Positions 512-42,359 of a stretch of 64,000 nucleotides of DNA are shown here, piece after piece. The DNA lies in assembly GCA_022226935.1 (NCBI GenBank), contig CP092081.1:2814181-2878180 (forward strand). The letters are read 5' to 3'. Both the position numbers and the translations under genes were made by a program. Origin of the DNA: Nitrospira sp. (GTDB taxonomy: Bacteria > Nitrospirota > Nitrospiria > Nitrospirales > Nitrospiraceae). The notes below the pieces were generated by a model, which saw only the letters and a program-made list of their open reading frames with translations, was not told the origin of the DNA and ran no database searches. Each line of letters opens with the position of its first letter. Within the stretch, counting starts at the first letter, position 1.

Positions 512-2206
512 TCACGATAGCCGTTTCTCCAGGCGATGGGCGACCTGCGTGACGACGCGACCGATGTTGAGATAGAGCTGATCCAAGTAGAGCCGGTTCA
601 TGAACAGGACATACAGGCGCACGAGGAAGGCCTCGATCCATGCGGGGATGGTGATGGTGCGTCCGTGGGCGTGGGCATACAGATACATCCAGCTCAGAAT
701 CGTCAACAACGTCGTGCCCATGACCAAACTGTCGAACAGTCGTCCGGGCAGCGCGGCGGCCTTGAAATAGGAGGCCACCTCGTCGGGGTTCGGGTACAGA
801 AAATGGGTGAAGCTTTCCACCGCAAAGAGATAGGTGAAGACGACGATCATCAGCGTCACCAGCATGGCGGCGGACACTTTCCAGGAGGCGACGGCGCGGA
901 TGCGCGTCAGCGAGAGGATCGCCTGCGAGGAGGTGACCCAAATAAAGAAGAGAAAAATCACCGTTCCTTGCGATTCGAGCAGTGGGATTCGCAGCACGCC
1001 GTGAGTGACCAACAGAATGACCAGGGGCAGCAACAGAGTCGTGAAAAACCCGGTCGACCAGGTCAGGTTGGAGAATTCGCGTTCCTCCGTCTCGCGGTCG
1101 ATCGGCGGGAACGAAGGCTCCTGGCGGGCCTTATGAATCACGTTGCCGCAGTTCAGGAACACCGTCCCTTTGAACAGGCCGTGCGCGATCAGATGAAAGA
1201 CGGCAAGGGAAAACGCGCCGAGGCCGCATTCCATGATCATGTAGCCCATCTGCCCGATGGTGGAAAATCCGAGAGTCTTCTTGATGTCGTTCTGTGTCAA
1301 CATCATGGTGGCGCCGAGGATCGCGGTCAGCATGCCGATGACGAAGACGACATGCAGCGTCGTCGGGCTCAGGCCGTACAGCGGGGCAAGCCGATTCAGC
1401 AGGAACCCCCCCGCGTTGATGATGCCGGCATGCAGCAGCGCATGGATCGGCGTCGGCGCGTACAACGATCGCGGCAGCCAGGTGTGAATCGGGAATTGCG
1501 CCGATTTTCCCATGGCGCCGCCGAAAATGAGCAGGGTCACCGCGGTGACGCCGTTCATCTCCCAGCCGAGAGCCGGCCAGATCGACAAGGTCACCGGGGT
1601 TTCCGCGGCGCGTGTGAACAGCGTCTGAAACTCGAACGTGCCGTACAGCGAATAGGCCAGGACAATGCCCGCGAGAAAGGCCGCATCGCTCAGTCGCAAC
1701 GTCGTAAACGTATTGGAGGCGCCGGACAATGTCGCCGCATGCCCGTGATTGTGCGCCAGGAGAAACAACAGCCAGGAGAGAATCTGCCAGAAAATGAACA
1801 GCATCACGAGATTGGCGCTGGAGACCATACAGAGCAGGATGGTCGTGGTGATGCCGAGCATGCCCAGATACCGGCGATACCCGCGATCCTGATACATGTA
1901 GCCCATCGAATACCGGTAGATGAGCGTGGTGACGCCCGTGATCAGGACCATCATGACGGCGCTGAGCCGGTCGATGTAGACGCCGATAGGGAAGGCGAGA
2001 TTGGCGATGGCGGCCGGATCATACAATTGGAACATGATCGGCCCGTCCGACGTCACCATGACCAGAATGATGAGGGAGCCGAGGAAGGACGCCGCGATCG
2101 GGAACAGGCCTGATCGGGCGTTCTGTTCTTGGTCCGCTCGATCCCCGGTCATCACGACGAAAGCCGTGAGCAGCGGCAACAGTGGGACGAGGGCGAAGAA
2201 GGACAC
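512..2206 (-). CDS. dabB: NuoL-like proton-conducting subunit, DabB/MpsA type
   Basis: A 564-residue polytopic protein of the proton-conducting membrane transporter family (PF00361), with about 14 hydrophobic segments. The segment HAGIINAGGFLLNRLAPL and the later GQMGYMIMECGLGAFSLAVFHLIAHGLFKG resemble, from memory, the NuoL paralogues that pair with DUF2309 proteins (DabB, MpsA) rather than respiratory NuoL. DabB with DabA takes up CO2/bicarbonate, driven by the cation gradient. The divergent neighbour at 2599 is a DUF2294/MpsC protein, which supports this reading. The start ATG at 2206 begins MSFFALVPLLPLLTAF. A true complex I or Mrp subunit remains possible because the DUF2309 partner is not in the window. 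Confidence 0.75.
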   Translation of the reverse strand: MSFFALVPLLPLLTAFVVMTGDRADQEQNARSGLFPIAASFLGSLIILVMVTSDGPIMFQLYDPAAIANLAFPIGVYIDRLSAVMMVLITGVTTLIYRYSMGYMYQDRGYRRYLGMLGITTTILLCMVSSANLVMLFIFWQILSWLLFLLAHNHGHAATLSGASNTFTTLRLSDAAFLAGIVLAYSLYGTFEFQTLFTRAAETPVTLSIWPALGWEMNGVTAVTLLIFGGAMGKSAQFPIHTWLPRSLYAPTPIHALLHAGIINAGGFLLNRLAPLYGLSPTTLHVVFVIGMLTAILGATMMLTQNDIKKTLGFSTIGQMGYMIMECGLGAFSLAVFHLIAHGLFKGTVFLNCGNVIHKARQEPSFPPIDRETEEREFSNLTWSTGFFTTLLLPLVILLVTHGVLRIPLLESQGTVIFLFFIWVTSSQAILSLTRIRAVASWKVSAAMLVTLMIVVFTYLFAVESFTHFLYPNPDEVASYFKAAALPGRLFDSLVMGTTLLTILSWMYLYAHAHGRTITIPAWIEAFLVRLYVLFMNRLYLDQLYLNIGRVVTQVAHRLEKRLS

Positions 2207-2598
2207 GCGAACCCCATGCGGGTGATGAAAAGAAACAGGCCAGCCGGCGGTCCTTCACACAAGGAACCAACGACTGGCCTGCACTGTCCCCGGCCTTTCC
2301 CGAGAGGGAACACCGGCAAGACCCTACTGCCTGTCTCAGTACATCAATGGAGTGGGTCCGGGCCGCGCACGCATCACGGCCTCTCGTCGGCACCACCGGA
2401 AAACTGGGTTAGATGTATCTGTGAAACCCACGCAATTGCAAGCAAAAAGTCCGCGTAAATGGGCAGAGCAGGTGCGAATGCCGTGGTCGATCGCGACTCG
2501 GGAGTGCCGTGTTGCGGCAGCGGCCTCCGTGGGGGTGGAGTCCTGAAGCGGCCGTGATTATAATCCGGTCGTCCATGTCTGTATCACCAAGGAGCAAG
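2207..2598. promoter_or_regulatory. Divergent intergenic region between dabB-like gene and MpsC-like gene
   Basis: These 392 bases lie between two divergent starts and contain no convincing gene; short frames here lack ribosome sites. A perfect TATAAT at 2559-2564 sits 34 bases before the MpsC-like ATG and is a reasonable -10 box on the plus strand; no good -35 hexamer is visible at 16-18 bases. The minus-strand promoter for the antiporter operon should also be here but I cannot place it. Confidence 0.45.
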
Positions 2599-3000
2599 AT
2601 GACCGTGCCTGTGTCCAGCAAAGGAGAAAAGGAAGCGGCCGTACGCACGGCGATCATCAAATTCGAACAGGAATTTCTGGGACGCGGCCCCGATGAAGTC
2701 CGCGTGTTCATTGTGCGGGACATGCTGGTTGTGCGACTGAAAGGGGTGCTCACACCGGCGGAGCGACAACTGGCCAAAACGGCCGAAGGCGTCGACATGG
2801 TCAAGCGGTTGCGTCAAAACCTGATTGCCCAGGGGCGTGAACGGCTCTGCGAGCAGGTGGCGGATCTGATCGGCGCCAAAATTACCGCGCTGTTCACCGA
2901 CATCGATACGGTGGTCGGCGAGCGCATCTTTGTCTTCACCTTGGAGTCCGATCTTGAAGCCAACTTCCGACAAGGGGAAAACGGGCGGGATCAAAAATGA
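2599..3000 (+). CDS. DUF2294 (MpsC-like) protein
   Basis: 133 residues of the DUF2294/MpsC family (PF10057). Recognisable parts are the central DEVRVFIVRDMLVVRLKGVLTPAE segment and a C-terminal TDIDTVVGERIFVFTLE segment; there is no membrane segment. The family is named after the third gene of the staphylococcal MpsABC system, whose MpsA and MpsB are the NuoL-like and DUF2309 proteins of inorganic-carbon uptake; the molecular role of MpsC is unclear. I chose the ATG at 2599 because AGGAG lies six bases upstream; an in-frame ATG at 2575 has none. The stop is one base before selO, so the two are likely co-transcribed. Confidence 0.75.
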   Translation: MTVPVSSKGEKEAAVRTAIIKFEQEFLGRGPDEVRVFIVRDMLVVRLKGVLTPAERQLAKTAEGVDMVKRLRQNLIAQGRERLCEQVADLIGAKITALFTDIDTVVGERIFVFTLESDLEANFRQGENGRDQK

Positions 3001-3001
3001 T

Positions 3002-4477
3002 ATGACACCACACACGCTCGAAACCCTCACGTTCGACAACAGCTACGCGCGTTTGTCGGAGGTGTTCTACGCCAAGGTGAACCCGACCCCGTTCAGCAGC
3101 GCGCCGGTTCTGATCAGCGCGAACCCCGCAGCGATGGAGTTGCTCGACCTCGACCCTCGGGAAGCGGCGCGACCGGAATTTGCCGGAGTCTTCGGCGGCA
3201 GCCTGCTGGTGCCGGGCATGGAGCCGCTGGCGATGTTGTATTCCGGTCATCAGTTCGGCGTGTACGTGCCGCAGCTCGGCGATGGCCGGGCGATTCTCCT
3301 GGGAGAAATCGTCAACGGGCGGGGCGAGCGCTGGGATCTGCATCTCAAAGGCGCAGGGATGACCCCATTCTCCCGCGATGGAGATGGACGCTCCGTCCTT
3401 CGATCGGCCATTCGGGAATACCTCTGTTGCGAAGCGATGCATGGACTCGGCATTCCGACGACTCGCGCCCTTTGCTTGGTCGGCAGTGATGACAAAGTCT
3501 ATCGCGAACAGGTGGAAACCGGCGCCACCATCGTCCGCATGGCGCCCTCGCACGTGCGATTCGGCAGCTTCGAGATTTTTTATTACCGGAAGCAGCATGA
3601 GCATCTGCAGCGCTTGGCCGATTACGTGATCGAGATGCATTTCCCTGATTTTGCGCGGGCCGCCGACAAATATGTCCGCTTGTTTGCCGCCGTGGTGGAG
3701 CGCACGGCCAAGCTGATCGCACAGTGGCAGGCGGTCGGCTGGTCGCATGGTGTGTTGAACACCGATAACATGTCGATCCTGGGGCTGACGCTCGACTATG
3801 GCCCCTATGGGTTCATGGACGACTATGACCCGGGCTTCATCTGCAACCATTCCGACTACAATGGACGTTATGCGTTCAACCAACAGCCCTACATCGGTCT
3901 CTGGAACCTGAGTTGTCTCGCACAAACCCTGTTGCCCCTCGCGCCCAAGGAAGAGTTAAAAGCGGCGCTCGATGGCTACCAGATCACCGTCGATCGGTGT
4001 TATCGAGATCATATGCGACAGAAACTCGGCCTGCGGGAGGATCGCGGGGAAGATGAAGCGCTGCTCCAAGACCTGAAGTCGCTCATGGTCGGCAGCCGTG
4101 TCGACTACACGATTTTCTGGCGCGAACTCGGCACCTTTTCATCCGATCCAGCGGCGAAGAACGAACGGTTGCGGGAGCATTTCCTGAATCCGGATCGCTT
4201 CGATGTGTGGGCGGGGCAGTATCGCGAACGACTGCAAAGCGAACAGAGTCGGGATGACGAGCGACGAACAGAAATGGATCGCGTCAATCCCAAGTATGTG
4301 CTCCGTAATTATCTCGCTCAAGGGGCCATCGAAAAGGCCCAACAGAAAGACTATGCTGAGATCGATCGCCTGCTGAATCTGCTTCGTGATCCCTATACAG
4401 ACCACCCTGGCATGAATTCCTACGCAGCCGCCCCGCCGAACTGGGGCAAACATCTCAGCGTAAGTTGCTCGTCGTAG
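3002..4477 (+). CDS. selO: Protein adenylyltransferase SelO (YdiU/UPF0061 family)
   Basis: 491 residues, close to the 478 of E. coli YdiU. SelO is a pseudokinase-fold enzyme that transfers AMP from ATP to protein Ser, Thr or Tyr, linked to oxidative stress. Visible motifs are GDGRAILLGE near residue 93, HLKGAGMTPFSRDGDGR near 113, the TDN of GVLNTDNMS at 254-256 (catalytic Asp255 and metal-binding Asn256) and DYGPYGFMD at 265. The C terminus ends in VSCSS, the conserved Cys position that is selenocysteine in some eukaryotic SelO proteins. The ATG at 3002 is one base after the MpsC-like stop; no strong ribosome site is visible, which suggests coupling. Confidence 0.93.
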   Translation: MTPHTLETLTFDNSYARLSEVFYAKVNPTPFSSAPVLISANPAAMELLDLDPREAARPEFAGVFGGSLLVPGMEPLAMLYSGHQFGVYVPQLGDGRAILLGEIVNGRGERWDLHLKGAGMTPFSRDGDGRSVLRSAIREYLCCEAMHGLGIPTTRALCLVGSDDKVYREQVETGATIVRMAPSHVRFGSFEIFYYRKQHEHLQRLADYVIEMHFPDFARAADKYVRLFAAVVERTAKLIAQWQAVGWSHGVLNTDNMSILGLTLDYGPYGFMDDYDPGFICNHSDYNGRYAFNQQPYIGLWNLSCLAQTLLPLAPKEELKAALDGYQITVDRCYRDHMRQKLGLREDRGEDEALLQDLKSLMVGSRVDYTIFWRELGTFSSDPAAKNERLREHFLNPDRFDVWAGQYRERLQSEQSRDDERRTEMDRVNPKYVLRNYLAQGAIEKAQQKDYAEIDRLLNLLRDPYTDHPGMNSYAAAPPNWGKHLSVSCSS

Positions 4478-4695
4478 GGAATCACTTCCGCCGGCTGTCC
4501 TCACCTACCGGTCCTACGGTATCCGATTAGATACGGCCCTGTATCCTCGCCGATACGACATCGACGCAATCAAGTTGCAAAACGCGTTAATTGTACGGCC
4601 CTTCGTACTCTACGTAGTTGGCACGAGAGATGCTGCGTCTACGTATAGTCTGCGAAGTCATCCTCGGCCTTGAGCCACTGAAGCAAGGATTGCGC
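4478..4695. other. Gap between selO and the large membrane protein
   Basis: About 220 bases with lower G+C than the surroundings and several small inverted pairs, for example GTACG/CGTAC around 4593-4608 and CTACGTAG at 4610-4617. It may hold the selO end signal and the promoter of the next gene, but no hexamer pair is convincing. If the next gene starts at TTG 4618 or ATG 4630 instead of ATG 4696 the gap is shorter. Confidence 0.3.
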
Positions 4696-30725: not shown

Positions 30726-32132
30726 TCATCGTGCCTGCCAGGATGCGGTTCTCGTCATGGTTCCCCACGTCGCTTGTTTCCCGCACACCCATCGATACAA
30801 GCCGATTAATTTCCAGACGGAATTCAGCTGGCGGAAACCGAAGTTTTCCAGGATGGCCGCTAGCAACAGTTTCAGCACGTCGCGCTGATTGGGGTAGACG
30901 TGGAACGACATTTCTTCCAGTAAGAGCGCACTCACCGACAACAACACGCCGAGTCCGATCGCCGCGACGAGCAGGATCAGCCACGCCTGCATCGAGACGA
31001 ATCCCATGACAAAGCTGAGGGTCAGGAAACAATAACCGAAGACCTCAATCGCCGGCCCGATCCACTCGAAGACCGCCATAAAAGGAAACGCCAGCCATCC
31101 GATCGTGCCGCCTTTCGGGTGCCACAAGAGATCGACGTTGTTTATCAGGCTTTCGCACAACCCGCGCTGCCAGCGGATGCGCTGATTCTTCAACGTGCGC
31201 AGGTCTTCAGGCGCTTCGGTCCAGCAGACGGAATCGGGGACGAACGTAATGCGATAGGGTTTGTCGCCCAGTCGCAGATGGCGATGCAGGCGCACGACCA
31301 GTTCCATGTCTTCCCCGATGGTATCCGATCGATAGCCCCCCACAGTGACCACCGCTTCTTTTCGGAAAATGCCGAATGCGCCGGAAATGATCAGCATGGC
31401 GTTCATCGGCGACCAGCCCAGCCGTCCGAAGAGGAAGGCGCGGAGGTACTCCACGATTTGGAACAGGGCCAGCAGATTTGAGGGCAATCCGATTTTGGTC
31501 AAGAAGCCGTTTTCGACACGGCAGCCGTTCGCGATGCGCACGGTCCCTCCGCTGGCCACCGTGCGATGGTCGTCTAGAAACGGTTGCACGGCCCGCCGCA
31601 GGCTGTCGGGCTGGAGAATGGAATCCGCATCGATGCAGCAGAACAGGGGATAGAGCGACAGGTTGATGCCCGCATTCAGCGAGTCGGCCTTGCCGCCGTT
31701 CTCTTTGTCGATGACGCGCAGGTTGGCGTGAAGCGATGAATGGTAAATCGCCCGGATTTCCGCCGTCGGCAGCTGAGTATGACAGGCCTCGGGAAACGGA
31801 AACAGCTCAAATTCTTTGCGGAGCACCTCGATCGTGGCATCCTTTGATCCATCGTTGATCACGACGATTTCATATTCCGAGTAGCTGAGTTGCAGCAATG
31901 AACGAATGGAGCCTGCAATGGTGGCGGCCTCGTTATAGGCGGGGACCAGAATGCTGATCTGCGGTTCGAAACCGGTGTAACTGGTCGGCAGGCTCTCGAG
32001 CACACGCTCCTGCAGATACTGCCGCAAGTATACGATGGCGATCAGGTCCAGCATCAAGTATCCGGCGGTCAGGCCGAGAACGTAGAGCAGGAACAGCCAC
32101 TCAGAAATTGAAATGAGCTTGTCTAACCACAT
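30726..32132 (-). CDS. Processive glycosyltransferase family 2, PgaC/IcaA-like
   Basis: 468 residues. Membrane segments near the N terminus (LFLLYVLGLTAGYLMLDLIA) and two or three at the C terminus flank a GT2 domain. Catalytic signs: ISILVPAYNEA, Asp94 in VINDGS, the DxD-type DAD at 168-170, GEDMEL and QRIRW (QxxRW), the mark of processive synthases such as PgaC/IcaA, BcsA and hyaluronan synthase. No PilZ domain. It should polymerise a sugar at the inner membrane. It is divergent from the GH-like gene and the two starts overlap by 20 bases. Confidence 0.9.
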   Translation of the reverse strand: MWLDKLISISEWLFLLYVLGLTAGYLMLDLIAIVYLRQYLQERVLESLPTSYTGFEPQISILVPAYNEAATIAGSIRSLLQLSYSEYEIVVINDGSKDATIEVLRKEFELFPFPEACHTQLPTAEIRAIYHSSLHANLRVIDKENGGKADSLNAGINLSLYPLFCCIDADSILQPDSLRRAVQPFLDDHRTVASGGTVRIANGCRVENGFLTKIGLPSNLLALFQIVEYLRAFLFGRLGWSPMNAMLIISGAFGIFRKEAVVTVGGYRSDTIGEDMELVVRLHRHLRLGDKPYRITFVPDSVCWTEAPEDLRTLKNQRIRWQRGLCESLINNVDLLWHPKGGTIGWLAFPFMAVFEWIGPAIEVFGYCFLTLSFVMGFVSMQAWLILLVAAIGLGVLLSVSALLLEEMSFHVYPNQRDVLKLLLAAILENFGFRQLNSVWKLIGLYRWVCGKQATWGTMTRTASWQAR

Positions 32133-33792
32133 CGATCAATGCGCCTCCGCCAACGGTGGTGTCGCTCGAGAGAGGATTTCCGGAACATCCTCCGGTGATC
32201 CATACGCACAGGCAGCGGGGCGGGGTGTCTTCGCGAAGGTGTTGTGCGGTACGGCAGTCGGTTCCATGGTCTGGCTTTCTGTTGCGCAGGCGAATGACAT
32301 TCCCCTGTCCTCGCCGATTCCTCCCACGGTCCATGAGATCGAACTGACCTATGCCGGGAAGGGTCCCGATCCGACCGTGGCGTTCAGCGGGCCTGCGCCG
32401 GCTGCGGGCCTTCTTCCTTATCGACCGTTTGTACCCATTCTTGAACTGCGCCCAGGCTTAGGGGCAACCCAGGTCTTCGGTCCCTGCCTGGGTCATGCGG
32501 TCCGAAGCGACTCGAGTCTTGAGTTGGAATGGACTGCCGACCAAGCGACACGTTGCGGCCAGCGTATCGAGCTGCGTCCAGGGGGAAGGCCGGTGGACCT
32601 CATGTCCTACCAGATGCTGCGGCTTCGTGGACGAGCCACAGGCCAGGTGGTGGTAGCTATAGAAGATGTGGCTGGTCATGAACGTGAGCACAATCACCCG
32701 CTGACGACGGTCACCGGGACATTCGACCTCTCCATTCCATTGAAAGAAATCGGCCGCGGGGTGGACCTTCGATATGTGACGGCTCTCGTCGTGTCTTCTG
32801 AGGGACACAGCGGACAGATCCAACTCGAGCAGCTGAGGGTGACGCAAAGGGAAGCGGGGAAGACGCGACCCGCCGGCACCGGTTTTTGGGTGTGGAACTA
32901 CCGCGCGGCGATACAGGAGTCACAGACGCTCCTGGACACGTGCCGCAAGCAAGCCTGTTCGAGGATGCTGATCCAAATGCCGTCACTCAATGATGATGAG
33001 GCGATCTGGCGCGACTATGGGCGGCTCTTGGGTCTGGTGCAGGAGGCCGGAATTGATGCGCTGGCGTTGGACGGGTACCCAGAAGCCATTCAGGAACCTC
33101 ATCTCTTGGCCGATAAAGTACAGAGACTGCTTCAGCTCGTGCGGCCTGGTGCGTTGTCGGGCATCCAGCTCGATATTGAGCCGTATCTCCTGCCGGGGTT
33201 TCTCGACGATGACGCGCAGCTCCGGCGCTATCTGGGCACGATCGAGACGGTGCACGAGGCCATTCACGGCCGCGCCAGGTTGTCGATGGTGATTCCCTTC
33301 TGGCTCGCAACCCCCACCGTGGGTGGTCGACCCTTGGCATACGCCGTGATGGATCGGGCCGATGAAGTGGCGGTCATGAGTTATCGCACCGATCTCGATG
33401 AGGTGCAGGACATCGCCGAAGACATTCTGCGGTATGGCGATGTGATCGAGAAACCCGTCTGGTTGGCCATTGAGACAACCCTGTTGCCGCTCGAACAGCA
33501 TGTCGTGTTGCGGCGCGATCTGCGGCCTGATCGCGCCGATGCGTTTCTGGATCGCGAGCACCGACGGCTACGGTGGAAGCCGATCTCCGAACCGGACGCG
33601 CCGACAGGAGCCGGAGAATGGTTCCGCATTCATCGTCGATTTGCAGTCAGGCCTGAACGTCTGACGTTTGCCGGACGTTCCCGTGTTGAGGTCTCCAAGG
33701 CGATCAGTCAGATGCTCGACCGCACGCTGCATCCCAGTTTTGCCGGGGTGATGATTCACGATCTCGATGGATTCCGAGCCCTCCCCGAATAG
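32113..33792 (+). CDS. Exported TIM-barrel protein, glycoside-hydrolase-like
   Basis: 559 residues. A long N-terminal region leads a hydrophobic segment ending SVAQA near residue 61 (signal peptide). Residues 100-245 are beta-rich with SLELEW and YQMLRLRGRATGQVVVAI, like a CBM11/galactose-binding jelly roll. From about 260 a TIM-barrel follows: SRMLIQMPS, ALALDGYP, GIQLDIEPY (the DxE pair expected of a GH18-type acid/base), SMVIPFWLA, EVAVMSYRT. The DIE and VMSY blocks resemble glycosidases. It lies between a polysaccharide synthase and export genes, so it may trim or cleave the polymer, like the hydrolase domains of PgaB or PelA. The ATG at 32113 is the only good start. Confidence 0.72.
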   Translation: MSLSNHIDQCASANGGVARERISGTSSGDPYAQAAGRGVFAKVLCGTAVGSMVWLSVAQANDIPLSSPIPPTVHEIELTYAGKGPDPTVAFSGPAPAAGLLPYRPFVPILELRPGLGATQVFGPCLGHAVRSDSSLELEWTADQATRCGQRIELRPGGRPVDLMSYQMLRLRGRATGQVVVAIEDVAGHEREHNHPLTTVTGTFDLSIPLKEIGRGVDLRYVTALVVSSEGHSGQIQLEQLRVTQREAGKTRPAGTGFWVWNYRAAIQESQTLLDTCRKQACSRMLIQMPSLNDDEAIWRDYGRLLGLVQEAGIDALALDGYPEAIQEPHLLADKVQRLLQLVRPGALSGIQLDIEPYLLPGFLDDDAQLRRYLGTIETVHEAIHGRARLSMVIPFWLATPTVGGRPLAYAVMDRADEVAVMSYRTDLDEVQDIAEDILRYGDVIEKPVWLAIETTLLPLEQHVVLRRDLRPDRADAFLDREHRRLRWKPISEPDAPTGAGEWFRIHRRFAVRPERLTFAGRSRVEVSKAISQMLDRTLHPSFAGVMIHDLDGFRALPE

Positions 33793-33826
33793 GATCGCAC
33801 ATGTCGGCAGAACAGGATCGTCACGG

Positions 33827-36190
33827 ATGAACGATCCCCTCACATGGATGACTCGAAGGACTTCCGTAGCCGGTCTGCTGGCGGGGCTGGTGCTCGCCGC
33901 GGGCTGGTTCTCTGCGCCCGCCACGATGATTGCGGCGATGGCGCCCGACGTCTCTCCACGCCAGATTCTCCAGCAAGCCAGAGCGTTGGAGGAGGAGAAG
34001 CGCTACGAGGAGGCCATCGCAGCGTACCGGCAATACCTTCTGGCCAAACCCGACCATGACGAGGTGCGCGCATCGGTAGCCAGGCTGCTGTCCTGGCAGG
34101 GCCAATTTGACGAATCTGTTGCCGGCTATCGCGAGCTCCTGACCCGCCACCCGCTCGATCACGACTTCCGAGTCGGTCTCGCCCAAGTTCTTTCGTGGCA
34201 GAAGCAGTTTGATCAGGCGCGAGCCGAGTATGAGCAGGTGCTCCAAGATGAACCGGACCATGTCGAGGCGCTCACGGGGCTTGCCAATGTGCTGTGGTGG
34301 AGCGGCCACCAGGAACAGGCCATTCCATACTATGAGCGTGTCGTGGCGGCGACCGGCGATGCGGAGGTGGCGGCGCGTCTGACGGCATTGAAGGCTGCGT
34401 CTGGTTCAGCCGGTACCCCTGTCCGTCCGTCTGGAACTGCTCAGGAAGATGACCCCGTGACCGTTCACGCCGCTCAGGCATTGGAGCGGGGCGGCCGATT
34501 GGAAACTATGCGCCAATATGCTGATGCAGTGACCGTCTATCGCGAGGAACTGCAGCAGTCGCCCGCGAATGACGAGGTGCGCGCCGCGTTGGCACGGGTG
34601 CTCTCCTGGCAAGGAGTTCACACGGAAGCCACGACGCTGTATCGAGAGATCCTAGCGCGCCATCCCCAGGATCAGGATATTCGTGTGGCATTAGGACAAG
34701 TCCTGTCGTGGCAGAACCAATTCGAGGAAGCCGGCCGCCTGTACCGGGAAGCGCTGCAATCCGAGCCGACCCTGGTCGAGGCACGGCGCGGCCTCGCCGA
34801 TTTAGCCTATTGGCAGGGACATCACGCAGAAGCGGTCCAACATTATGAGGCGCTGCTTGCCGAGACGCACGATCCCGAGATTGAAGCCCAACTGAAGACC
34901 GTTCGATCGGAATGGCGTGCGACCTCGCCGCAGGTTGCCGAGCCACCTTCTTCAACTCAGATCCCAGAGGACAGGGACGTGCGCGCGATCGCGGCCGCGA
35001 TGGAGCACGCCACGAAACTCGAAGTGGCCAAACAATATCCTGAAGCGGAACGGGTCTACCGCGACATCTTGCGCCGGCACCCTGACAACGACGAAATCCG
35101 CACGGCCCTGGCTCGGGTGCTCTCATGGCAGGGGGCTCATGCGGAAGCGACGACCCTCTATCGTGAGGTGCTGGCACGCCACCCTGACGATCAGGACATT
35201 CGCGTCGCGCTGGCGCAAGTCTTGTCGTGGCAGAAACAGTTCGATGAAGCGGGACGATTGTACGAGGAGATCTTGCAGGCCGAGCCAAGGCAGATCGAAG
35301 CCCGGCGCGGCCTCGCCGAGGTAGCCCATTGGCGTGGCGATCGGTCCGAAGCGTTGCAGCGGTATGAGGCCCTGCTGGCCGACACGCACGACCCGGCCAT
35401 TGAACAACAGATCAACGCCGTGAAATCAGAATTGCTCGTGTCGCCGCGCGCCGCCGTCGGACAAGGGCTGACCGGGCTGCGTCTTCCCTACCGAGACTAC
35501 GCCAAGATCGGCTACGGTCACTATACCTATACGAAGAATCAGCCGGACGAACGCGACCTCTTGTTTGAACTCGCCAAACCGCTCGGCAACCAAACACTGG
35601 TACTGCGAGTGGAACCGATCAATCGGTTTGGATTTCACGACACGCCGATGTCAGCCGAGCTCTATAGCCCCTTGTGGTCGCGAGCCTGGGGGTATATCGC
35701 GGGGCAAGCCACGGTGAATCCGCATTTTTCACCCGATTACTCGTTTATCGGTGAAGTGGCCCAGGGCCTGGGCGGATTGCACGCCGCACTGGCACCCCTG
35801 GAGGTTTCGTTTGGCTACCGCCGGTTGAATTACAAACATGACGACATAGATCTCCTGATGCCGGGGCTCACCATCTTTCTTCCGTTCAATGTGTGGCTGA
35901 CGGAAAAGATCTATCTGATTCCGAATACGGGGGCGGTCACACTCGCGTCTCAGCTCACCTGGCGGCCGGCCGATCGGCTGCAGTTCTTCGCTTCCGGTTC
36001 CTTCGGCACGTCAGGCGAACGCATCGTGGCGGCGCAAGATTTTACTCGCGTCGGGAGTCGCACGGTTCAGGGCGGGGTCACCTTTCCGATCAACGAACGC
36101 TTCTCCGCCGAAACCTCCGGATACTACGAAGACCGGGGCTTCCTCTATGTCCGGCGAGGCGGAAACTTCAACCTCATCTATCATTGGTAG
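33827..36190 (+). CDS. TPR-rich outer-membrane protein with YaiO-type beta-barrel
   Basis: 787 residues. Signal peptide (LLAGLVLAAGWFSAPATMIAA), then three homologous TPR blocks near residues 45-190, 210-360 and 385-535, each with the phrases LARVLSWQG and ALAQVLSWQ, and a C-terminal barrel of about 250 residues with the YaiO-family (TIGR04390) features: RDYAKIGYGHYTY, ELYSPLWSRAWGY and a terminal aromatic (YHW). It corresponds in design to PgaA, which has TPR plus porin, and likely exports or guides the polymer. The repeat is also visible in DNA: near-identical VLSWQ stretches recur at about 34.19, 34.70 and 35.22 kb. The next gene starts four bases after its stop. Confidence 0.85.
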   Translation: MNDPLTWMTRRTSVAGLLAGLVLAAGWFSAPATMIAAMAPDVSPRQILQQARALEEEKRYEEAIAAYRQYLLAKPDHDEVRASVARLLSWQGQFDESVAGYRELLTRHPLDHDFRVGLAQVLSWQKQFDQARAEYEQVLQDEPDHVEALTGLANVLWWSGHQEQAIPYYERVVAATGDAEVAARLTALKAASGSAGTPVRPSGTAQEDDPVTVHAAQALERGGRLETMRQYADAVTVYREELQQSPANDEVRAALARVLSWQGVHTEATTLYREILARHPQDQDIRVALGQVLSWQNQFEEAGRLYREALQSEPTLVEARRGLADLAYWQGHHAEAVQHYEALLAETHDPEIEAQLKTVRSEWRATSPQVAEPPSSTQIPEDRDVRAIAAAMEHATKLEVAKQYPEAERVYRDILRRHPDNDEIRTALARVLSWQGAHAEATTLYREVLARHPDDQDIRVALAQVLSWQKQFDEAGRLYEEILQAEPRQIEARRGLAEVAHWRGDRSEALQRYEALLADTHDPAIEQQINAVKSELLVSPRAAVGQGLTGLRLPYRDYAKIGYGHYTYTKNQPDERDLLFELAKPLGNQTLVLRVEPINRFGFHDTPMSAELYSPLWSRAWGYIAGQATVNPHFSPDYSFIGEVAQGLGGLHAALAPLEVSFGYRRLNYKHDDIDLLMPGLTIFLPFNVWLTEKIYLIPNTGAVTLASQLTWRPADRLQFFASGSFGTSGERIVAAQDFTRVGSRTVQGGVTFPINERFSAETSGYYEDRGFLYVRRGGNFNLIYHW

Positions 36191-36194
36191 GCGT

Positions 36195-38135
36195 ATGCAA
36201 CGGTCCACCCTTGTGCGCGTGTCGGGTATTGCCCTGCTGTTTGTCTCTCTGGTGATCGGCGTCCGAATTCTCGTCGGCTCTCCTTCTGTCGAACACATGG
36301 AGATTCCGGAGAAAGACTTTCACCGTTTCCCGGGGGTGTCCGGTCCCAATGACGCGACGGTAATGCCGGATCGCGTATCGGCGGCGTGGAGTGCGTATGA
36401 ACAAGGCTCGGCAAGCCGGTTGGCAATTCTCTTGACCGATCCGGACTCATCGTGGCTCGGATTGGCTCACGGACTCAAATCCATCGGTGTTCCGTTTCGT
36501 ATCACGCGTGATGTCCATGAGGCCCTGGCGCATAAGGTGGTGCTGGTCTACCCCATGATATCCGGGAAGGTCCTGGGACCGGAGGCGTTGCAAGCTCTGG
36601 CGGAATTTCCGAAAACAGGCGGTACCCTGATCGGCGTGCAAGTCCTGGGGGGTGGACTGAACCAGGTCTTCGGGTTTCGTGATGCCGTTGCGTCGCGCCA
36701 GCGCTATGACATGACCTTGACCTCGACCGATCCTTTGCTGGCGGACCTGACTGATCCTCGAGAGCGACAGCTGCGGGTCGGCATCCGTGACAAAGGTATG
36801 GACGTGATGGGAACCTATGGGTATACCGAGGCGTCGGCTCCTCTCGCGCGCTTCGATGATGGAACCGCCGCCATCACGCAGGTCGTTCATGGACGAGGCC
36901 GAGCCTATGCCATTGGACTCGATCTCGGGTTTCTCCTGTTGAAGGGATACAACAACCGCGGTGAGGAGCTGGTCAAGACATTCGACAATGAGTTCGACCC
37001 GACGCTCGATGTCTGGCTGCGGCTCACCAAATCGATATATCGCACGGCGCAGGAAGCGGCGGTGACGTTGGGGACGGTGCCTTTCGGCAAGTCGTTGTCG
37101 GTCATGATGACGCACGATGTCGATTTTACGCAGTCCATCAAAAATGCGGTCGAGTATGCCGCGTATGAGAAAAGTCAGGGTCTGATCGGCACCTATTTCA
37201 TTCAGGTGAAATATATTCGCGATTATAACGACGACATTTTTTTTAACGACGAGGGTGTGCAGTATGTGAAGCAATTAGCGGATCTGGGGATGGAGCTGGG
37301 CAGCCATACGATTGCCCATTCGCGGGTGTTCAATCAGTTCCCTCTGGGGACCGGACGGGAAACCTATCCATCGTATGCCCCGTTCGTGAAAGACCGGACG
37401 ACGGCTTACAACGCAAGCATTCTGGGCGAGTTGCGGGTGAGCAAGTTTCTCATCGATCATTTTTCCGGGCAGTCGATCGTCTCCTTCAGGCCCGGCGAAT
37501 TGTCCAATCCCTTCGGGCTCCCGCAAGCGCTCCTGGCAACCGGCTATCGGTACAGTTCCACGGCGACGGCCAATAACTCGCTGACCCATTTGCCGTATCA
37601 GCTGAACTACGACCGTCTCATCGACAGTGAGGTCGAGGTGTTTGAGTTTCCCGTGACCATCGAAGATGAAGCGTTGCCGAAGATGGGCGACCGTCTCCCG
37701 CAGGCGCTGGAGGTGGCGAAACGTATCAGCCGGTATGGGGGTTCCGTCGTGGTGCTCATCCATCCGAATATTCTGGATCATAAGCTCGCCTTCGAAAAAG
37801 GGTTCGTCGAGGGCGTGCGCCCCTACGCCTGGTTCGGCTCGGTGAGGGAGTTCGGGCGATGGTGGGCGGCGCGTAATCGGGTGGAAGTGGATGTCGCGCG
37901 CGATCCAACTGCCATGCGGGTGACGTTGAAGGTTCCCGTTTCCGTGGCCGGCTTGACGCTCGAGGTGCCGGCCGGATGGGAAGTGGCGCGCTCGGGAAAC
38001 TCCCTGCGGGGAGTGGAACAACACGGAACGATGGTGACGTTCCCCGAATTACAAGGTGTTCACACCGTTTTCTTCACGCCAAGTTCCGCTGCTCCTTCCA
38101 ATCGAAGTGCTTCCTCTGCGAGACATCGCACGTAA
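36195..38135 (+). CDS. Membrane-anchored polysaccharide deacetylase (NodB-like)
   Basis: 646 residues. One N-terminal membrane segment (VSGIALLFVSLVIGVRILV) and a GATase-like N-terminal half (LAILLTDPDSSWLGLAHGL, GTLIGVQVLGGG). The NodB deacetylase follows: motif 1 THDVD at 306-310 (Asp as catalytic base), metal ligands HTIAH at 371-375, RPGELSNP at 432 and a HPN late motif. Catalytic residues appear intact, so it likely removes acetyl groups from a hexosamine polymer in the periplasm. It follows the TPR/YaiO gene by four bases. Confidence 0.85.
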   Translation: MQRSTLVRVSGIALLFVSLVIGVRILVGSPSVEHMEIPEKDFHRFPGVSGPNDATVMPDRVSAAWSAYEQGSASRLAILLTDPDSSWLGLAHGLKSIGVPFRITRDVHEALAHKVVLVYPMISGKVLGPEALQALAEFPKTGGTLIGVQVLGGGLNQVFGFRDAVASRQRYDMTLTSTDPLLADLTDPRERQLRVGIRDKGMDVMGTYGYTEASAPLARFDDGTAAITQVVHGRGRAYAIGLDLGFLLLKGYNNRGEELVKTFDNEFDPTLDVWLRLTKSIYRTAQEAAVTLGTVPFGKSLSVMMTHDVDFTQSIKNAVEYAAYEKSQGLIGTYFIQVKYIRDYNDDIFFNDEGVQYVKQLADLGMELGSHTIAHSRVFNQFPLGTGRETYPSYAPFVKDRTTAYNASILGELRVSKFLIDHFSGQSIVSFRPGELSNPFGLPQALLATGYRYSSTATANNSLTHLPYQLNYDRLIDSEVEVFEFPVTIEDEALPKMGDRLPQALEVAKRISRYGGSVVVLIHPNILDHKLAFEKGFVEGVRPYAWFGSVREFGRWWAARNRVEVDVARDPTAMRVTLKVPVSVAGLTLEVPAGWEVARSGNSLRGVEQHGTMVTFPELQGVHTVFFTPSSAAPSNRSASSARHRT

Positions 38136-38197
38136 GTGATTCTCCAAGCCAGGAATAGCCGCGCGATTTATGGATCAGGAGCATGCGCACATGTGCG

Positions 38198-39310
38198 CTA
38201 GGCCGTGCGTGCTTGCTGTGGAACGATAGGCGCCGGTTCAGGAGTTTTCATTTTCGATTGAGCGATGAAGGACACCAACTGTTCCTGCGATTCGACCGTG
38301 CTCAGCGTGTCGTACAGCTTGGTCAGCCGTTGCGGGGTCATCCAGGGAAGATTCGATAGCGCTTCAGCGGCCCGGTAGCGCACCCACCAATGCTCATCAT
38401 CCAGAAGGGCGATCAGCCGCGCTTCATCTTCTTCCATCCCCACCTTGCCCAATGCTGATGCCGCTTGGAGCCGTATATACCAGGTTGGATGAGAGAGGTG
38501 TGCCCGGATCGTGACGACGTCCCGGGGATCGCTGCATTCCCCGAACAGAAACAGGCAGGCCGCCAACAGGTCATCCGACAGGGCTCCTTTCTGGAGCAGG
38601 GCCCGCAGCGTCGGCAAGGCGTGCTGGCTTTGCGTAGCCGCCAAGTGACGAATCAGCCGCGAACCGATTTCCGGGCTGGCCAGGCAGGCGGCTTCGGCAA
38701 TGGCCTCGGCCGCGATGTCCGCGCCGGCTGGCTCGAATATCGCGACGACTTTGAGCGGAGACCAGTCTTTTCGTGTGCTGATCACCGGGATGATCAGCGG
38801 CACGGCTGCTTGGGCGTCGATATGCAGCAGGGCTTTGGCTGCGACCAATGAGACAAACGCGTTGTCGGCCTGCAGCATTGCGGCCAACTCGTTCCAGATG
38901 GACCGTTCCTGAAGGTGCCCAAGCGTCACGATCGCGAGCAATCGGCGCCGGAGCAGTCTGGCATGAAGGAGGTCCTTCGCAAACAGGTCACTGCCCGTTC
39001 TGCGCGCCAGCTCCTTCAAGTTCGCGCGCGCGTCTCCCCGAATGGACTCATAGCAATGATTCCAGAGATAGAGCAGGACGAGGTGATCGCGAGTGGTGAG
39101 CGGAGGAAGCGTTTCGGGCACCTCGACCACACATTCTGCGAGTAAGGGCCGCCAGATCTCGGTGACGGCGCGCCGCCGCCGGTCTTTGTGATGGCGGATG
39201 TATCGAAGCAGGAGAATGCCCAGCAGGAGCAAACAGACGGCGGAATAGATGGAAATGGCGGCGATGGTGCCGATGCGAAGCGTCAGGTCTGACTGATCGA
39301 GGCCCAGCAC
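38198..39310 (-). CDS. Membrane-anchored HEAT-repeat protein
   Basis: 370 residues from GTG 39310 (AGAGG seven bases upstream). One membrane segment near residues 15-37 (AAISIYSAVCLLLLGILLLRY), a basic stretch, then about six HEAT repeats, for example SIWNELAAMLQADNAFVSLVAAKALLHID (key part FVSLVAAKALLHI) and WYIRLQAASALGKVG, and a Pro-rich tail. The repeats form a cytoplasmic scaffold. It lies between the polysaccharide genes and the receiver genes, 21 bases downstream of the receiver gene, so it may link them. Confidence 0.8.
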   Translation of the reverse strand: MLGLDQSDLTLRIGTIAAISIYSAVCLLLLGILLLRYIRHHKDRRRRAVTEIWRPLLAECVVEVPETLPPLTTRDHLVLLYLWNHCYESIRGDARANLKELARRTGSDLFAKDLLHARLLRRRLLAIVTLGHLQERSIWNELAAMLQADNAFVSLVAAKALLHIDAQAAVPLIIPVISTRKDWSPLKVVAIFEPAGADIAAEAIAEAACLASPEIGSRLIRHLAATQSQHALPTLRALLQKGALSDDLLAACLFLFGECSDPRDVVTIRAHLSHPTWYIRLQAASALGKVGMEEDEARLIALLDDEHWWVRYRAAEALSNLPWMTPQRLTKLYDTLSTVESQEQLVSFIAQSKMKTPEPAPIVPQQARTA

Positions 39311-39331
39311 GCCATTCCTCTCGGCGATCGC

Positions 39332-39727
39332 TCAGGCCGCATGCGCGACGAAGCGCTTCAACCGACTGGTCAGTTCGCGCGGGTTGAACGGCTTAATCAT
39401 GTAATCATTGGCGCCGTTCTCCAATGCGCGCTTGATATCATGCTCGCTCCCGTCGGCCGTCAACATGACGATCGGCACCTTTTTCCAGCCCTCGCGCTTT
39501 CTGATCACGGTGAGCACTTGGAGTCCGCTCAAGAACGGCAACATCACGTCCAACAGCACGATATCCGGGGGAGCCATGGTATTGACGAGTTCTTGCGCCT
39601 GCCGGCCATCTTTGGCGTGGACGACTTCATAACTTGCCCGCTCCAGCAGAAATTTCAATAAGCTCGCCGTGTCTTCCTCATCTTCGACCATCAGAACTCT
39701 GAGTTTGGGTGTTTCGGGGGTATCCAT
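39332..39727 (-). CDS. CheY-like response regulator receiver
   Basis: 131 residues, one receiver domain and nothing else. Acidic pocket EDEED at 15-19, phospho-acceptor Asp60 in LLDVMLP, switch Thr in MLTADG and Lys112 in MIKPF. With no output domain it should act by protein contact. AAGGAG sits ten bases before ATG 39727. It is followed by the HEAT gene and preceded, after 114 bases, by the HPt gene. Confidence 0.92.
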   Translation of the reverse strand: MDTPETPKLRVLMVEDEEDTASLLKFLLERASYEVVHAKDGRQAQELVNTMAPPDIVLLDVMLPFLSGLQVLTVIRKREGWKKVPIVMLTADGSEHDIKRALENGANDYMIKPFNPRELTSRLKRFVAHAA

Positions 39728-39841
39728 GCATCGCTCCTTAGGTGTCGATGAGTGAGGGGCCTGAATGTTCAGATTGTCCTGACCCGGACGAGTTCATTCT
39801 TTTCTAGCACGGATTCCTACAAACACGCGCATACTTCTTCA

Positions 39842-40177
39842 TTATTCGTACGTGATCTCAACTCGTTTCAGGTATGACGCCAGCTCCACCAGGTCCTGGC
39901 GGATCGATGCTCCATTAGCGGCCTTGGCCGCTTCCTCTACTCGACCGGCGAGAATGGTCATGCCGTGAAAGCCATAACTGCCGCTGACACCCTTCATGCC
40001 ATGAGCTACTTGCCTGATGGTCTCGAAGTCGTTCTGGGCAATCGCCTCACTCATGGTCCCAATTTCTTTGTTCCGATTGGCCATGAATTTGGGAATCAGT
40101 GGCTCGAATGCAGAGTCGACGATGACGACTACCGATCCGGCTCCGCAATCCGACGGCGGGGGTATGGTGTCGCTCAT
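39842..40177 (-). CDS. HPt (histidine phosphotransfer) protein
   Basis: 111 residues of the Hpt family. The phosphorylated His59 is in RQVAHGMKGVSGSYG, the usual HxxKG signature. HPt proteins pass phosphate between receivers. The start overlaps the GAF-PAS-receiver gene as ATGA, so they are translated together. Confidence 0.9.
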   Translation of the reverse strand: MSDTIPPPSDCGAGSVVVIVDSAFEPLIPKFMANRNKEIGTMSEAIAQNDFETIRQVAHGMKGVSGSYGFHGMTILAGRVEEAAKAANGASIRQDLVELASYLKRVEITYE

Positions 40178-41535
40178 GAGGCCAATTCCTTCAGCGACGG
40201 ACTGATCGCATAACGTTGGATCGTCTCCAGGAGCGTGTTTTTTTTCAGCGGTTTGGTCACGTGGGCGGTGAACCCGGCCGCCCGGGTCTTCTCAATGTCT
40301 TCTTCACGGGTATTGCCGGTCAGGGCGATAATCGGCGTCGTGCCGCGCTGCTGCGTCTCTTCCCATAGTCTGATAAGACGGATGGCCTCGTAGCCATCCA
40401 TGACTGGCATCTGAATATCCATCAGAACGAGGTCGTACCGGCCGGCTTGAAACTTCTCAACGCCTGCAGCGCCCTGTTCAGCCAGATCCAGTCGATAGGG
40501 CAAAGCTTTCAGAAAGACCGAGACCAGTACTCGATTGTCTTCCATATCTTCCACGAGCAGGATGCGCAGAGGAGAAGGCTGAGAGGGCTTGAGCTGATCC
40601 GGAGCCGGCGGGGGGGCCGGTCGGGCGGCCGGCATGACAGAAGCCGCATGCGGCGGCCGAGGGTCGTGGCAGATCCAGAGCAGCCAGTCGCTCGATTGCG
40701 CGTGGCCGGGAAGCACAGCCAGAGATACGTCGGCGGCCAGAGCGTTCCCGTTTTTCTGCCGGCCGACAATGTCGCCGGTCCAGCGTCCCTCTTTCAGCAG
40801 AACAGGAAACACCTTCGTCTCAATGGTCTCGATGCAGGATGCGGTATGGAAATCTTTCCAGGATTTCCCGATGAGCTCGGCCGGTTCGTACCCGTACATC
40901 GCCGCATGCGCGCGGTTCACATAGGTATAGCGGCCTGTTTGATCGAGAAAGGCGATGGCGTTGTTTGTTTGTTCGAAGGCAAACAGACATGTCGCCCGCA
41001 TCGCGTCGGCCCGTTCCCCATTCGCCAAGCGTTGTGTCAGTTGTCGGTTTCGCAGGCGAAGCTCGAGTTGGGCAACCACTTGCCGACCCAGCACCGTGAG
41101 CGCCTGCTTCTGTTGCCACGACAACCGCCTCGGGACCCGGTCGATGAGGCATAGCGTTCCAAGGGCATAACCATCCCTGTCGATGAGTGGGACGCCGGCA
41201 TAAAACCGAATGTGCGGATCGCCCGTGACCAGGGGATTGGTGGCAAATCGATCGTCGCCGAGCGCGTCGGGCACTTCAAAAATATCCCGCTGAAGGATCG
41301 CATGGGCGCAAAAGGCGATATCGCGGGAAGTTTGGCAGACGCCCACTCCCGTTTTGGCTTTGAACCATTGCCGGAGGGGATCAATGAGACTGATGAGCGC
41401 GATCGGCACCTGGCAGACCTGAGCGGCCAAATGCACCAGATCGTCAAATGGTGCTTCTGGTTCGGTATCGAGGATCTCGTATCGTCGTAACGCTTCGACA
41501 CGTTCCGGTTCATTCTCTGGGTGTGGCGCGATCAC
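40174..41535 (-). CDS. GAF-PAS-receiver signalling protein without kinase domain
   Basis: 453 residues from GTG 41535 with GGGAG six bases upstream. A GAF domain covers about 20-160 (CQVPIALISLID, SRDIAFCAHAI), a PAS domain about 185-290 (FLDQTGRYTYVNRAHAAMYGY), a Pro-rich linker, and a C-terminal receiver about 323-440 with Asp373 in LMDIQMP. There is no HisKA or HATPase domain in the gene or next to it, so the phosphoryl donor must be a kinase elsewhere. The HPt gene overlaps its end. Confidence 0.9.
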   Translation of the reverse strand: MIAPHPENEPERVEALRRYEILDTEPEAPFDDLVHLAAQVCQVPIALISLIDPLRQWFKAKTGVGVCQTSRDIAFCAHAILQRDIFEVPDALGDDRFATNPLVTGDPHIRFYAGVPLIDRDGYALGTLCLIDRVPRRLSWQQKQALTVLGRQVVAQLELRLRNRQLTQRLANGERADAMRATCLFAFEQTNNAIAFLDQTGRYTYVNRAHAAMYGYEPAELIGKSWKDFHTASCIETIETKVFPVLLKEGRWTGDIVGRQKNGNALAADVSLAVLPGHAQSSDWLLWICHDPRPPHAASVMPAARPAPPPAPDQLKPSQPSPLRILLVEDMEDNRVLVSVFLKALPYRLDLAEQGAAGVEKFQAGRYDLVLMDIQMPVMDGYEAIRLIRLWEETQQRGTTPIIALTGNTREEDIEKTRAAGFTAHVTKPLKKNTLLETIQRYAISPSLKELAS

Positions 41536-41882
41536 CTGGATCTCCCGAGTTGCATGTGGATGTCATCTGCCCGATGCCACCGAAGCCACTTCCGCGGAGC
41601 GCAACACCTAGGCGCATCGGAAACCGGCTCCGCGCAGATCTGTTCTGCCAATTCCTTATCGGATAAGAGCGTCTGAGCTTGAGAAATCTTCAGGATGAGC
41701 GATTTCTCAATTTCTTAGACCGAAGTTCGTTGCGCGGTTGGCACATTGCTTTCGATAGGCTGATCAGCCGTAATTGGTGGATATGAGCAAAAATTCATTG
41801 CAGTCTTGAGCACATGGGATACGCATGGTATGTAAAGTATTGCCCTAGAACAGGTCGTGAGTGGAACATGAGGATGTACAGC
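41536..41882. promoter_or_regulatory. Intergenic region with a promoter and a small hairpin
   Basis: This 347-base gap holds no gene I can support. TTGAGC (41806-41811) and TATGTA (41829-41834) are 17 bases apart, a good plus-strand promoter for the lipoprotein gene. An 8-base inverted pair GAGAAATC (41681-41688) and GATTTCTC (41701-41708) with a 12-base loop is also present; it has no T-tract and may be an operator or chance. Confidence 0.4.
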
Positions 41883-42359
41883 ATGAAATCGTACCGATGG
41901 TCTTTTTTCGTCATAGGTCTGAGCCTCTTGAGCATGCAGGCCTGCAGTCATGCGCCGCGGCCTCAAGAAACCACCTGGTCTGAGCCGGTCGCGGGGGAAA
42001 TTTCGTTGCATCGCGGGGAGCATCCGGTCCTCGCCGGTGAATGGGAATATGAAGAAGGCGGGATGGTGGTGCCCTTGAGATTAGACCGATTCGGAAACGG
42101 GTCATACGATTTTAAGGATGGGCGATTCCGAACGGATCTGTTGTCCGACCACCAATGGGCTGGGGCCTGGACTCAACGGGAGAATGATCGCGAAGGGGGA
42201 TTTGAGATTACCCTGTCTCCCGACTATTCGGAAGGTGAAGGGCGCTGGTGGTATACACGCATTGAAGGCGACAGGGCTCCGACCAAGGCCGGCGGCCGGT
42301 TCCATGTGATGAAGGTGCAATCCTTCGTCGATAATCAGTCCTGGCCGGCCGCGCACTGA
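41883..42359 (+). CDS. Hypothetical lipoprotein
   Basis: 158 residues with signal peptide and lipobox LSMQAC. The mature part is beta-rich with GEWEYEEGGMVVPLRL, GSYDFKDGRF and GAWTQRENDREGGFEI, a lipocalin- or META-like small barrel pattern; I do not recognise a family. ATG 41883 is chosen because AGGA is eight bases upstream; ATG 41868 is an alternative. Confidence 0.7.
   Translation: MKSYRWSFFVIGLSLLSMQACSHAPRPQETTWSEPVAGEISLHRGEHPVLAGEWEYEEGGMVVPLRLDRFGNGSYDFKDGRFRTDLLSDHQWAGAWTQRENDREGGFEITLSPDYSEGEGRWWYTRIEGDRAPTKAGGRFHVMKVQSFVDNQSWPAAH

Follow-up and report, generated by a model that had tools for sequence, protein, structure and literature searches.

A Nitrospira locus predicted to encode a synthase-dependent exopolysaccharide pathway with a YaiO-type exporter and a membrane HEAT-repeat partner

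A gene set of Nitrospira sp. probably encodes a synthase-dependent pathway for a β-linked, partly de-N-acetylated amino-sugar polymer, which would be trimmed by a GH18-like hydrolase, exported by a YaiO-type barrel and gated by a phosphorelay acting via a HEAT-repeat protein. The set is found in three bacterial phyla. Its parts are of known kinds; what appears to be new is their combination, together with the HEAT partner and the hydrolase family, and no published description of the gene set was found in the open-access literature. More tentative is the proposal that it represents a distinct synthase-dependent class, in which a lone phosphorelay receiver and a membrane HEAT protein replace control by c-di-GMP and in which the hydrolase is GH18-related and the exporter of YaiO type. 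The usual c-di-GMP control in such systems is of the PgaD or PilZ type. The bacterium is a nitrite oxidiser. Nitrospira are key nitrifiers, growing in flocs and biofilms, and the locus provides a testable gene set for a machine that could build their biofilm matrix.

Gene organization

The locus occupies positions 30726-41535 of the window, a stretch of 64,000 nucleotides from the forward strand of contig CP092081.1 (positions 2,814,181-2,878,180; GenBank assembly GCA_022226935.1). The source is Nitrospira sp. (GTDB lineage Bacteria; Nitrospirota; Nitrospiria; Nitrospirales; Nitrospiraceae). All eight genes that a preliminary description had named here are present in their places and match the expected domains (Table 1). 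They form three units: the GT2 gene reads leftward, the genes for the TIM-barrel protein, the TPR/YaiO protein and the deacetylase read rightward with ends that overlap or abut, and the genes for the GAF-PAS-receiver protein, HPt, lone receiver and HEAT protein read leftward in that order. The locus is more than one operon. Scans of the locus for promoters and terminators gave scores no better than those of shuffled sequences. The deacetylase probably starts at 36195 rather than at 36147, since many homologues align from about that point.

Table 1 Genes of the locus and their positions in the window
Predicted product	Position	Strand	Basis
Processive polysaccharide synthase of family GT2 (468 aa) with TM segments at either end	30726..32132	-	Pfam GT2, TM scan
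Secreted TIM-barrel GH-like protein, putative start	32113..33792	+	AlphaFold model, invariant motifs
TPR repeats followed by YaiO-type outer-membrane β-barrel, 807 aa, predicted exporter	33767..36190	+	TPR families, TIGR04390, PF19413
Polysaccharide deacetylase, membrane-anchored or secreted	36195..38135	+	Model, CE motifs, PF01522 borderline
One-helix HEAT-repeat protein, 370 aa, predicted synthase partner	38198..39310	-	HEAT_2, TM scan, co-occurrence
Stand-alone receiver, no output domain	39332..39727	-	PF00072, 98.3 bits
HPt phosphotransfer protein	39842..40177	-	PF01627, 38.7 bits
GAF-PAS-receiver protein without kinase domains	40174..41535	-	No HisKA/HATPase match

The GT2 and TIM open reading frames lie head to head and share 20 bases (window 32113-32132). 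Most Nitrospira loci of the same type keep this overlap at precisely 20 bases. Either one of the two starts has been misassigned, or the transcripts overlap at their 5' ends.

Synthase and outer membrane protein

The nearest NCBIfam model of the GT2 protein is PgaC_IcaA (TIGR03937), which it matches at 155.8 bits against a cut-off of 422.3, and over 299 residues it shares 27% identity with E. coli PgaC. No protein of the whole genome scored above the cut-off of this PgaC model. In an alignment of nine GT2 sequences that share 40-93% identity with the window protein, residues D94, D168-A-D170, E274-D275 and Q317-R-x-R-W321 are invariant; in the pseudomonadotal GT2 the last motif reads QRARW.

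The TPR/YaiO protein belongs to the YaiO type, scoring 70.7 bits with TIGR04390 (cut-off 32; relatives 48.9-82.8 bits) and 33.3 bits with PF19413 (cut-off 23.9). Relatives from two other phyla also carry the YaiO domain. The match to PgaA (TIGR03939) reached 90.1 bits, in the TPR part, against a cut-off of 366.65, and the protein is also far under the cut-off for BcsC.

TIM-barrel hydrolase

The TIM barrel proposed in the preliminary description was confirmed in an AlphaFold model (pLDDT 80), in which it spans residues 250-559 and accompanies a β-sandwich at about 75-245. No Pfam or NCBIfam family matched the protein; a Pfam B5 match was below cut-off and was taken as spurious. Structure comparison by VIA aligned the barrel with Cwp19, with GH18 chitinases and with the C-terminal domain of PgaB at Z 16-20 (about 16-18 for the chitinases, 17 for PgaB), and no GH114 or GH166 entry was present among the matches listed. 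With barrels of these types it shares the fold, an acidic pair ending strand 4 and an MxY motif on strand 6. The acidic pair, D354 and E356, comes after strand 4 (350-353) within GxQxDxE, and Y424 sits in MSYR at strand 6 (418-422). Compared to the canonical strand-4 motif of GH18, DxxDxDxE, the last Asp and the Glu are kept while the earlier Asp is replaced. Putative active-site residues are D354, E356, Y424, E454 and H549; together with M422 and R425 these are invariant in homologues down to 23-26% identity. In two comammox-type loci (L071 and L073) the glycine of GxQxDxE is replaced; the aligned L071 protein retains the D and the E.

Searches of the PDB with single TIM or deacetylase sequences yielded nothing useful, and with profiles the sole matches were a TIM protein of C. 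fimi (10yv, 1.2e-8) and β-galactosidase domains. Profile comparison of either protein with E. coli PgaB by hhalign was not significant. The hydrolase family appears to be new, and the locus contributes a candidate glycoside hydrolase family.

Deacetylase

The deacetylase is borderline for PF01522 (21.5 bits in one search and 24.9 in another; cut-off 23.1). Its model (pLDDT 79) consists of an α/β domain at about 70-250, a CE domain at 298-563 and a C-terminal β domain. Among known structures, the CE core resembles 3rxz most (Z 22.6), followed by the H. pylori enzyme 3qbu (Z 21.5). All CE4-type motifs are present (D308xD310, H371xxxH375, R432 and H523), and the residues H307-D308-V-D310, H371, H375, R432 and H523 are invariant. 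By the preliminary description, a lack of catalytic residues in the hydrolase and the deacetylase would speak against its reading; the alignments show invariant residues in both.

Beyond the CE core, the order of domains is that of PelA and Agd3. Residues 70-630 of the model were aligned by VIA on residues 279-847 of PelA (9cgy), with 445 residues aligned at Z 16.4 and an rmsd of 6.1, and the whole model was aligned by Foldseek and VIA on residues 145-802 of Agd3 (6nwz), with 470 residues aligned at an rmsd of 8.6. Given these high rmsd values, it is the domain order that is shared and not a close superposition. The first motif of the locus enzyme, HDVD, is without the adjacent Asp pair of the CE18 enzyme Agd3, where CM1 contains D377-D378 (PMC7229062). 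At its N terminus Agd3 has a CBM87 domain. Furthermore, the arginine of the third motif (MT3) is kept in the locus deacetylase and is missing from PelA (PMC12022489).

A search of plasmids with the deacetylase gave no match. In one locus (L074, 3760-6992) the deacetylase gene is split in two, with an integrase-core (rve) transposase gene in between. In comammox-type Nitrospira (L025-L034) a deacetylase gene lies at a separate site beside a DUF72 gene, with no GT2, TIM or TPR gene nearby.

Comparison with known systems

The path from synthesis to export that was read from the locus earlier, with hydrolase, deacetylase and YaiO barrel as separate proteins, is supported at the level of predicted parts. 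Having separate enzymes is by itself not new: in Bacillus cereus, the deacetylase PelADA has its own gene in pelDEADAFG (PMC13254593). Nor is a YaiO protein beside a GT2 without precedent. In E. coli yaiO-yaiX-yaiP-yaiS, YaiO likewise adjoins a GT2 and a putative deacetylase. The two GT2 proteins are 26% identical over 231 residues only, E. coli YaiO (257 aa) shows no significant pairwise match to the TPR/YaiO protein of the locus, and no TIM, TPR or HEAT gene is annotated in the E. coli cluster.

The locus resembles the Pga system, which makes PNAG in E. coli, in having a GT2, a periplasmic deacetylase, a TIM-barrel hydrolase domain, and TPR repeats with an outer-membrane barrel. The nearest NCBIfam model of the GT2, its identity to PgaC and the fit of the TIM model to the PgaB C-terminal domain could indicate a divergent pga operon in which PgaB has been split in two and PgaA exchanged for a YaiO barrel. 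This is unlikely. PgaB fuses a CE4 and a GH153 domain, whereas the locus has two separate genes whose products show no profile match to PgaB, and the deacetylase carries extra PelA/Agd3-like domains. The Pga system has PgaD and the PgaA porin, whereas the locus is without PgaD and has a YaiO-type barrel, a HEAT protein and a phosphorelay. PgaD was not found in the genome, the best match being 12.5 bits (cut-off 27) and outside the locus. With the synthase and the TPR protein also far under the PgaC, PgaA and BcsC cut-offs, the earlier view that no standard pga operon is matched holds.

PelA and Agd3, the latter from the fungal GAG cluster, act on α-GalNAc polymers. A Pel- or GAG-like pathway making an α-linked GalNAc polymer would account for the α/β, CE and β-rich domain order of the deacetylase, and relatives of Agd3 have been reported in uncharacterised exopolysaccharide operons of Gram-negative bacteria (PMC7229062). 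Pel, like the locus, also has a TPR exporter. We nevertheless regard such a pathway as quite unlikely. The synthase of the locus is an inverting GT2, whereas Pel uses the PelDEFG complex, and Pfam and NCBIfam domain searches recognised none of PelC-G among the genes of the locus. In PelA the hydrolase (GH166) is fused to the deacetylase; the hydrolase of the locus is a separate protein, and its barrel aligns with GH18-like enzymes, with no GH114 or GH166 entry among the matches listed. The conserved MT3-type arginine also sets the locus enzyme apart from PelA.

Distribution

With the deacetylase as query, a search through species genomes returned 33 loci, mostly from Nitrospira. In 15 of these, all further Nitrospira loci, the eight genes are complete and unchanged in order and orientation. 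The gene set proposed in the preliminary description is thus fully syntenic elsewhere in Nitrospira. The TIM profile matched strongly in 20 of 198 Nitrospirota genomes, and one additional genome (G133) has a distant relative. Matches to the HEAT profile were found in exactly these 20 genomes, on the same contig as the TIM gene and a few kb apart. The hypergeometric probability of this complete overlap is 8e-28, a value that overstates independence because the genomes are related. Several genomes of the same genus lack TIM, HEAT and deacetylase altogether. Overall, this distribution says that TIM and HEAT were gained and lost together.

The deacetylase was found in 15 of the 198 genomes, all of them within the 20 with TIM and HEAT. 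The core is present without a detectable deacetylase in five of the 20, and at least two more have a broken one; in comammox-type clusters the gene is located elsewhere, broken or absent. Deacetylation would therefore not always be needed. In a more distant Nitrospira locus (L035), known from a single metagenome assembly, GT2 and TIM apparently share one frame of 1070 codons; HEAT precedes it, and TPR/YaiO and a deacetylase gene with a broken frame follow. The gene directly upstream of this HEAT gene (2156-4606) combines three receivers with a GGDEF domain, which suggests that the variant has c-di-GMP input.

Outside the Nitrospirota the core five genes (GT2, TIM, TPR/YaiO, deacetylase and HEAT) were found in one pseudomonadotal genome (G473) and, with a weakly supported HEAT-type protein, in two Campylobacterota. 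The pseudomonadotal locus (L077) has on one strand, in order, hybrid kinase-REC-HPt, REC, TPR/YaiO, HEAT, GT2 and deacetylase, with the TIM gene divergent from the remaining set. In the Campylobacterota loci (L041 and L076) one strand carries deacetylase and TIM; the opposite strand encodes a small protein, GT2, TPR/YaiO and, between these two, a one-helix protein of 359-372 aa. The one-helix protein has weak HEAT_2 matches and an equivalent position; homology of the 359-aa protein to the Nitrospira HEAT protein is not claimed, as the profiles do not match. The set is rare outside Nitrospira: the deacetylase was found in 1 of 196 genomes of the order of the pseudomonadotal genome, that genome alone, and the TIM profile in 1 of 299 genomes of its phylum and, for Campylobacterota, in 3 of the 249 genomes searched. 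In two other proteobacterial loci (L037 and L038) a related deacetylase was found, and no TIM gene.

A distant relative of the TIM protein (L075, 8963-13599) is clustered with a sodium:solute symporter (SSF) and a β-N-acetylhexosaminidase (265.8 bits, cut-off 207), and the other genes of the system are absent there. These neighbours fit a HexNAc substrate. They would also fit a role in modification or recycling of envelope polysaccharide, with a product that is not secreted to the surface; to our knowledge no function has been established for E. coli YaiO. We consider this very unlikely, since a processive-type GT2 and a TPR-barrel protein, both kept in three phyla, have the anatomy of an exporter and not of catabolism. 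The locus also points to a role for YaiO barrels.

HEAT protein and phosphorelay

The HEAT protein matches HEAT_2 at 55.8 bits and has a TM segment at residues 9-39 followed by an Arg/Lys-rich stretch; the predicted topology is one N-terminal TM helix with cytoplasmic repeats. No description of a HEAT-repeat membrane protein in any such exopolysaccharide system was found in the open-access literature, and the protein is proposed to be a synthase partner of a new kind. In the lone receiver D60 is the phospho-acceptor and K112 is also present; its LD[VI]MLP and KPF motifs are present in 20 of 20 homologues. The HPt protein has H59, within an AHGMKG motif conserved in all 19 homologues. The GAF-PAS-receiver protein of the window has receiver residue D373 and no HisKA or HATPase match. 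Several relatives at this position are full hybrid kinases with HisKA and HATPase, and the window protein is a probable remnant of such a kinase, so phosphate must come from another kinase.

The preliminary description had treated HEAT, receiver, HPt and GAF-PAS genes alike as attached to the locus. For the phosphorelay genes, which are variable, this stands; for HEAT it does not. In comammox-type clusters HEAT directly follows TPR/YaiO, with no receiver or HPt gene nearby, which argues that HEAT is core and the phosphorelay accessory. That absence could also be taken to mean that the locus does make an exopolysaccharide and that HEAT and phosphorelay are neighbours with an unrelated role, but this is most improbable given that HEAT tracks TIM perfectly and that its gene is flanked by TPR/YaiO and GT2 in the pseudomonadotal locus and found upstream of GT2 in L035.

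Proposed pathway

In the synthase-dependent pathway that we favour, the membrane GT2 would polymerise an activated sugar and move the chain through the membrane portion of the enzyme itself. A β-linked chain is proposed because the GT2 family is inverting. In the periplasm the deacetylase would remove N-acetyl groups and the GH18-like TIM enzyme would cut or trim the chain. Folds and motifs suggest this, as do signal or TM segments, which agree with the proposed compartments. By analogy with PgaA, PelB and BcsC, the TPR domain may guide the chain to the YaiO barrel for export. We infer both the chemistry of the polymer, a β-linked and partly de-N-acetylated HexNAc chain, and the order of modification and export. 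The likeness of the deacetylase to enzymes of α-GalNAc polymers speaks against a β-HexNAc product.

The HEAT protein, with one inner-membrane helix and cytoplasmic repeats, would act as partner of the synthase. Where the phosphorelay is present, phosphate may pass from kinase to receiver, HPt and lone receiver, which would act on HEAT and so switch the synthase. HEAT is the simplest target of the lone receiver because its gene begins 22 bases downstream. The function of HEAT and its gating by the receiver are likewise predictions, and control through HEAT is the least certain step of the mechanism.

Adjoining genes

Other small or adjoining genes accompany the clusters. In Campylobacterota, a small conserved protein with no family match is encoded between TIM and GT2 (L041, 6541-6996; L076, 5407-5973). 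Beside the Sulfurovum cluster (L041, 1040-3262) lies a gene for a lipoprotein with DUF4874 and DUF4832, the N-terminal part of which weakly matches the TIM profile. Next to the cluster, many Nitrospira loci conserve a small gene, at 41814-42359 in the window, that possibly encodes a lipoprotein and has no family match.
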